Assembly: GCA_032249735.1 (NCBI GenBank)
Contig: JAVVHA010000014.1
Coordinates: forward strand, 1 to 64,000
Origin: Dehalococcoidia bacterium
Lineage (GTDB): Bacteria; Chloroflexota; Dehalococcoidia; SM23-28-2; HRBIN24
Length of the DNA stretch: 64,000 nt
Reading direction: 5' to 3'
Shown here in pieces: positions 29,312-31,087 of this stretch. The position numbers were made by a program, and so were the translations under genes. The notes below the pieces were generated by a model. That model saw only the letters and a list, made by a program, of their open reading frames with translations, ran no database searches and was not told the DNA's origin. Every line of letters begins with the position of its first letter. Position 1 is the first letter of the stretch.

Positions 29312-29974
29312 CTAAAGGCTGTGGGCCGCCCTTGACGGATATGGGCAGAGGTCGGCCAGGGGACATGGTTGGCAGAGGGGGGAGCGGGCGCGGCACAGGT
29401 TCCGCCCATGCCTTATAAGGAGCACGTGGAAGGGGAAGACCAGCTCCTGAGGCACCTGGCTCTGCAGGAGCTTCTGGGTCTGGACGGCATCGGCCCTCCA
29501 GGGGACGAGCCCCAGGCGACGGGCTACCCGGTGCACATGCGTGTCCACAGGCAAGGCTGGACGGCCCAGGGCGAAGAGGAGGACGCAGGCGGCCGTCTTG
29601 GGCCCCACCCCTGGGAGGTCTTCAAGCCAGGCCTGGGCCTCCTCCAGGGGCATCTGGGAGAGGAAGGAGAGGTCCAGGGAGCCGCGTCGCTCCAAGACTT
29701 GTGCCAGGAGGGCCTTGAGGCGTTGGGCCTTGATGCGGCCCAGACCCCCCACGCGTATGGCGTCTTCCAGCTCCTCCTGAGGGGCGGCCAGGACATCTCG
29801 CCACTCGGGGAACCGAGTCCGCAGGCGCATAAAGGCGCGGCCAGAGTTGGCATCGCTGGTGTTCTGGGAGAGGACGGCCAGGACTAGCTCCGTCAAGGGG
29901 TCGCCGTGGGGCCGCCAAGCCGGGCAGCCATAAAGCCCTGAGAGCCTTTCCACCACCAGCTGGGGGGTGAGCAC
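29312..29974 (-). CDS. nth: endonuclease III (HhH-GPD, 4Fe-4S)
   Basis: The 220-residue base-excision repair enzyme has the helix-hairpin-helix LPGVGPKTAACV with the catalytic lysine near residue 131, the catalytic Asp in VDTHVHRV, and the C-terminal iron-sulfur cysteines C-x6-C-x2-C-x5-C in CRARSPLCQPCPLADLC. The frame is open to 30169 but would run into selD, so the GTG at 29974 is chosen. The similarity to the family starts right there (LTPQLVVERL). A TTGCCC with TACTAT 18 bases on sits so close that the message may be leaderless. Confidence 0.88.
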   Translation of the reverse strand: MLTPQLVVERLSGLYGCPAWRPHGDPLTELVLAVLSQNTSDANSGRAFMRLRTRFPEWRDVLAAPQEELEDAIRVGGLGRIKAQRLKALLAQVLERRGSLDLSFLSQMPLEEAQAWLEDLPGVGPKTAACVLLFALGRPALPVDTHVHRVARRLGLVPWRADAVQTQKLLQSQVPQELVFPFHVLLIRHGRNLCRARSPLCQPCPLADLCPYPSRAAHSL

Positions 29975-30015
29975 CTCAGCGTATATAGTAAGGCGGGGCT
30001 TTAAGGGCGGGCAAC

Positions 30016-30045
30016 TTGGTGGGAACCTGGAGCCGAGGTTACACT
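30016..30045 (+). promoter_or_regulatory. candidate promoter of selD
   Basis: TTGGTG at 30016-30021 and TACACT at 30040-30045 are 18 bases apart. The expected start of transcription is near 30052, just ahead of the AAGGAGG site at 30053-30059, so the leader would be very short. Confidence 0.35.
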
Positions 30046-30061
30046 GGCTCTGAAGGAGGCG

Positions 30062-31087
30062 ATGATGGCCCGAGAGGTACGCCTGACCCAGATGGCCACC
30101 TGCGCTGGTTGAGCGGGGAAGGCCGGAGCGGCCTTCCTGGCGCAGGTGCTGCGCCGTCTCCAGAGCCATATCGCTGCCAGCCCCAGCCTCCTGGTGGGGC
30201 TGGCGCCACCCGACGACGCCGCCGTCTATCAGGTGACGCCAGATGCGGCGGTGGTGTTGACAGTGGACTTTTTCGCGCCCTTGGTGGACGACCCTTACGA
30301 CTTCGGGGCCATCGCCGCCGCCAACGCCATGAGCGATGTCTATGCCATGGGGGGGGAGGTGGCCCTGGCCCTAAACGTGGCCGCCTTCCCCGAGGATATG
30401 CCCGAGGAGGTGGTGGCCCGCGTGCTGGAGGGCGGGGCTGACAAGGTGGCAGAAGCAGGGGGCGTCCTGGCGGGTGGCCACACCATCATAGACCGGGAGC
30501 CCAAGTATGGGTTGTGCGTCATGGGGTTTGTGCATCCCCAGAAGGTGCTCACCAAGGCTGGGGCGCGCCCCGGCGATAGACTAGTCCTCACCAAGCCTGT
30601 GGGCACAGGCATCGTCACCACCGCCGCTAGGAACGGCGAGGCCTGGCCCCACCACTTGCGGGCGGCCGTGGGCTGGATGAAGGTCCTCAACCGCCATGCC
30701 ATGCATCTGGCCCGTCAGCTCCAGGCCCATGCGGTCACCGATATCACTGGCTTTGGGCTTATGGGCCACGCCTGGGAGATAGCAGAGCAGAGCAACGTTC
30801 GCCTCCGCATCTGGGCCAGCAGAGTGCCGGTTCTGCCGGGGGCCCTGGAGTACGCCCGCAAGGGCATCTTCCCTGGCGGCGGGCACCGCAACCTCTCCTA
30901 CTACGGCCCGCGGGTGGACGTAAGCCCCCAGGTTACCGAGGAGGTGCGGCTCCTCATGTTCGACCCCCAGACCTCGGGGGGGCTGCTCATGGCCGTGCCC
31001 GAGTCCCTGCCTAGCTTGCCAGCGGGCGAGCACCTGTGGGAGATCGGGGATGTGGTGGAGGGGGAGGGGGTGGAGCTGCTGCCATAG
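30062..31087 (+). CDS. selD: selenide, water dikinase (SelD), a selenoprotein with in-frame UGA
   Basis: SelD makes selenophosphate from selenide and ATP. The frame from ATG 30062 (AAGGAGG just upstream; ATG 30065 also possible) is interrupted only by TGA at 30110-30112. Reading it as selenocysteine gives TCAGUAGK with Sec17 and Lys20, the positions of the catalytic Cys17 and Lys20 of E. coli SelD. The rest is standard: PDDAAVYQ, VDFFAPLVDDPYDFG, AANAMSDVYAMGG, and DITGFGLMGHAWE. The total is 341 residues, close to the usual 347. Two hairpins follow the TGA. A frame starting downstream of the TGA would lack the active site. Confidence 0.93.
30117..30155 (+). promoter_or_regulatory. candidate bacterial SECIS region: two hairpins after the UGA of selD
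   Basis: A first stem of 8 bp (GGAAGGCC 30117-30124 with GGCCTTCC 30130-30137) closes a loop GGAGC. The loop begins 12 bases after the TGA and opens with two guanines. A second stem of 7 bp (30139-30145 with 30149-30155) closes the loop GTG. Bacterial SECIS elements lie in this interval and need guanine at the start of the apical loop, so the first hairpin is the better candidate. Confidence 0.6.

Follow-up and report, generated by a model that had tools for sequence, protein, structure and literature searches.

A selenophosphate synthetase gene with an in-frame UGA selenocysteine codon and a probable SECIS hairpin in a Dehalococcoidia bacterium

Selenophosphate synthetase (SelD; selenide, water dikinase) is known from Escherichia coli, in which Cys17 and Lys20 of the enzyme are essential, and from organisms such as Haemophilus influenzae, in which the protein contains selenocysteine (Sec). 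SelD is the second most widespread selenoprotein family in prokaryotes, and its Sec-containing form, recognized by the motif UxxK, is an experimentally verified selenoprotein family (PMC13188914, PMC1794560). A Sec-type selD is thus a well-known arrangement that is common in bacteria. The bacterial SECIS (bSECIS) model describes a hairpin whose apical loop follows the pattern N1-G-[G/U]-N-N2, a G being present among its first two nucleotides, and lies 16-37 nt after the UGA (PMC13188914).

The selD gene described here occupies positions 30062 to 31087 on the forward strand of the 64,000-nucleotide stretch of DNA that was analysed (the window). It encodes 341 residues followed by a TAG stop codon (31085-31087). 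The initial annotation had claimed that this frame is broken by a single TGA, and TGA 30110-30112 was indeed the sole in-frame stop between ATG 30062 and the terminal TAG. When the TGA was translated as Sec, the protein began MMAREVRLTQMATCAGUAGKAGAAF. The read-through product scored 377 bits against the TIGR00476 selD model (cut-off 125) and 331 bits against NF002098 (cut-off 299), which identifies it as a full-length SelD equivalog. Its nearest solved relatives were the SelD structures 3u0o, 2yye and 2zau, the best being 3u0o (E 3.5e-68), which we take to be the E. coli enzyme. A single selD copy scored above the cut-off in the genome, the remaining family matches being distant relatives below it.

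In the alignment of the product to 3u0o, residue 4 of one protein was paired with residue 4 of the other at the start, and no gaps occurred through the active-site loop. The UGA codon (30110-30112) therefore falls on Cys17 of E. coli SelD, and the AAG codon at 30119-30121 on Lys20, in agreement with the initial placement of U17 and K20 at the catalytic positions. The segment reads U17-A-G-K20, with an in-frame UGA at the position of the catalytic cysteine and the lysine of the UxxK motif in place; K20 was invariant in an alignment of 14 relatives. Residues 14-17 (30101-30112) read C-A-G-U, a CxxU motif, and Cys14 was almost invariant in the same alignment. This residue could form a selenenylsulfide with Sec17.

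A Shine-Dalgarno-like AAGGAGG, read in the sequence at 30053-30059 on the forward strand, lies 2 nt from ATG 30062 and 5 nt from ATG 30065. Because the latter spacing is better, we favour ATG 30065 as the true start; the actual protein may therefore have its Sec at residue 16. On the reverse strand, an endonuclease III-like ORF (29312-30169) can be extended across the start of selD. The true start of that ORF is probably near 30000, which would make the two genes divergent.

The comparison of selD covered 61 genomes, comprising the studied genome and its relatives, and 80 loci were added from named genomes, the nearest from Chloroflexota and the others from Clostridia and beyond. SelD was found above the cut-off in 48 of the 61 genomes, mostly with one in-frame TGA. 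The initial annotation had proposed an alignment with U- and C-type SelD proteins; among the 120 genes in which the active-site codon could be read, it was UGA in 103 and a Cys codon (TGC or TGT) in 17. All genes of the same genus and family had UGA, and conservation of the codon extended beyond these to the order and across the class. Two genomes of the same order, G006 (loci L037 and L148) and G021 (L049 and L147), each contained a UGA-type selD alongside a Cys-type one. In a tree of 39 proteins, well-supported branches forced at least two changes between Sec and Cys, and the Cys-type genes formed two separate clades within one family of the same order. Judging from this tree, Cys-type genes arose at least twice in the order.

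These data bear on the possibility that the TGA really terminates translation or stems from faulty sequencing, with selD a pseudogene or expressed only as a shorter ORF. A mechanical ORF call does yield such a product, a 313-residue protein starting at GTG 30146, and the initial annotation had correctly anticipated that gene callers would start downstream and drop the catalytic site. However, this shorter product is without the catalytic loop, its GTG lies within the loop of the probable SECIS hairpin described below, and the rest of selD is intact. Since 103 of the 120 genes have UGA at this very codon, chance and sequencing error are excluded as its origin. Together with the Sec machinery found in the genome, these observations make a stop, an error or a pseudogene very improbable.

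The initial annotation had predicted that SelA, SelB and tRNA-Sec are encoded elsewhere in the genome and had regarded their absence as decisive against a selenoprotein. All three were present in the same assembly, which comprises 1.73 Mb in 28 contigs and is 99% complete. According to profile searches, selA is on contig 5 (567 bits, cut-off 268) and selB, a 633-residue ORF, on contig 7 (342 bits, cut-off 242). A tRNA-Sec with anticodon TCA was found on contig 15 (71 bits for RF01852) and was also called tRNA-SeC by ARAGORN. The genome thus carries the complete set for decoding UGA as Sec, with the sel genes spread over separate contigs and forming no operon with selD. In the relatives, one genome with a UGA-type selD (G005, L043) had no selB above the cut-off, possibly through a gap in its 93% complete assembly. 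Two genomes with a Cys-type SelD (G011 and G013; L150 and L048) retained selB above the cut-off, which implies other selenoproteins there.

The same data address a reading of the UGA as Trp or Cys, through suppression or a change of code. We found no support for such a reading. The tRNA-Trp in the loci examined has a CCA anticodon, neighbouring genes use UGA as an ordinary terminal stop, and the active-site position in relatives is occupied by UGA or Cys codons only. With tRNA-Sec(TCA), selA and selB in the genome, insertion of Trp or Cys is the least credible of the explanations considered. Overall, the UGA observation is confirmed, and the initial reading of selD as a selenoprotein gene is supported.

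We then examined the mRNA downstream of the UGA for a SECIS element. In the selD gene of the window, folding energy over 45 nt gave a z of -2.3 relative to synonymous recodings. This comparison was weakly informative, and specific helices were therefore tested instead. The helix designated H2 comprises positions 31-45 in a numbering that starts at the U of the UGA (30140-30154 in the window) and is extended by one further pair to 30139-30155 (forward strand; GGCGCAG-GUG-CUGCGCC). Its loop, G-GUG-C, and the distance of ∼32 nt from the UGA to the apical loop match the bSECIS model, although this distance is at the far end of the usual range, a point that speaks somewhat against H2. Because all seven H2 pairs were kept in 4% of synonymous recodings of the gene on its own, the case for H2 rests on comparison across genes.

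Several features of this comparison point to H2. On this axis, 64% of 81 UGA genes had a helix of 5 bp or longer, as opposed to 23% (maximum 36%) in 300 synonymous recodings (z 9.3), indicating that codon choice favours the helix. Compensatory changes were found at pair 33:43, which was GC in 67 genes and TA in 9, and at pair 36:40, which was GC in 68 and AT in 11; pair 30:46 was GC, AT, TA or CG. The presence of H2 was also tied to the UGA. In the same order, the helix was complete in all 18 UGA genes and in none of the 6 Cys genes (Fisher p 7e-6, an optimistic value since related sequences are not independent), and over all genes it was complete in 70 of 103 UGA genes and 0 of 17 Cys genes. 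H2 was lost in both of the separate Cys clades, so that two independent Sec-to-Cys changes in one family, each accompanied by loss of the hairpin, serve as a natural experiment by which the SECIS can be located. From these comparative data, the SECIS is best placed, with good probability, at 30139-30155.

A second, very stable hairpin adjoins the UGA at 30116-30138 on the forward strand. When 30110-30150 is folded (-25.1 kcal/mol, z -3.1), this hairpin is the dominant structure, and a weak outer pairing extends to the UGA. We initially took this hairpin to be the SECIS and then dropped it for H2, which the comparison across genes favoured. Its loop is only ∼13 nt from the UGA, too close for the standard model; it is therefore non-canonical and its role is uncertain. 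In other selD genes, the corresponding stretch contains a SECIS-like hairpin, H1, whose loop is 16 nt after the UGA. The H1 helix came next after H2, being found in 40% of 81 UGA genes as compared with 18% in synonymous recodings. Moreover, H1 was commoner when H2 was missing, occurring in 17 of the 33 UGA genes without a complete H2 (the other 16 having neither helix complete) versus 14 of the 70 with it (p 0.002, optimistic for the same reason). Two UGA-type selD genes on contigs 193 and 194 of one genome (G031; L023 and L139) both had a complete H1 and an incomplete H2. From these patterns, selD genes seem to use either of two SECIS sites, with the loop ∼16 or ∼32 nt after the UGA.

A variant in which Sec is inserted but the working SECIS of the studied gene is the hairpin at 30116-30138 draws on the dominance of that hairpin in the fold and on the frequency of H1 elsewhere. 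By contrast, its loop lies outside the 16-37 nt interval, and in the same order H1 was kept in 4 of 18 UGA genes, with H2 complete in every one. We consider this variant unlikely, although it merits more weight than the readings that dispense with Sec.

Taken together, the locus almost certainly represents an ordinary Sec-containing selenophosphate synthetase in which UGA 30110 would be decoded through SelB and, probably, the hairpin at ∼30139-30155. The sequence analysis directly establishes the reading frame, the protein family, the place of Sec, the machinery genes and a conserved hairpin linked to the UGA. We infer that SelB with Sec-tRNA(UCA) would bind this mRNA hairpin, upon which the ribosome would decode the UGA as Sec. 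Within the N-terminal loop (UAGK), Sec would then stand where E. coli SelD has its catalytic Cys17. The enzyme would produce selenophosphate from selenide and ATP, and SelA would use selenophosphate to convert Ser-tRNA-Sec to Sec-tRNA-Sec. Synthesis of full-length SelD would consequently require SelD's own product, a circular dependence that is known from many bacteria.

We also searched for other uses of selenium in the genome. Homologues of molybdopterin oxidoreductases (which would include FdhA), peroxiredoxin-like proteins and rhodaneses lacked an in-frame UGA over the matched region, and CMD/AhpD had no match in the genome. Nor did the genome contain a match to SelU/YbbB (TIGR03167), the marker for the selenouridine trait, or to YqeB (TIGR03309), that for the Se-cofactor trait. 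A scan for in-frame UGA codons with a SECIS-like hairpin covered the window and 20 further stretches (∼446 kb, ∼26% of the genome) and returned selD as the sole credible case, using a crude procedure that missed selD itself at the first threshold. The remaining candidates were either antisense shadows or ends of genes after which a start codon follows. That SelD is the only selenoprotein of this genome, such that a Sec apparatus without SelU and YqeB mainly makes its own SelD, is an unlikely proposition. If true, the loop would sustain itself, and selenium would have no other visible use in the genome.

The findings indicate that UGA is decoded as Sec in a little-known lineage, the named relatives of which are uncultured members of the Chloroflexota, and that its selD would be cut short by simple gene callers. 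As compared with known enzymes, the product belongs to the same family as the Cys-type E. coli SelD (3u0o) and shares its active-site numbering, but has U17 and Gly19 where the E. coli protein has Cys17 and Cys19. It is likewise of the same family as, and colinear with, the SelD of structures 2yye and 2zod, presumably from Aquifex aeolicus, whose deposited chain carries Cys at the Sec position. The closest counterpart is the Sec-containing SelD (TIGR00476, UxxK), which it resembles in matching the family over its whole length, in carrying Sec where the N-terminal loop has its catalytic residue, in the presence of the Sec machinery and in a SECIS 3′ of the UGA. Nothing essential sets the two apart; the particular traits of this lineage are a frequent Cys14 before the Sec (CAGU) and a SECIS loop placed ∼32 nt after the UGA.
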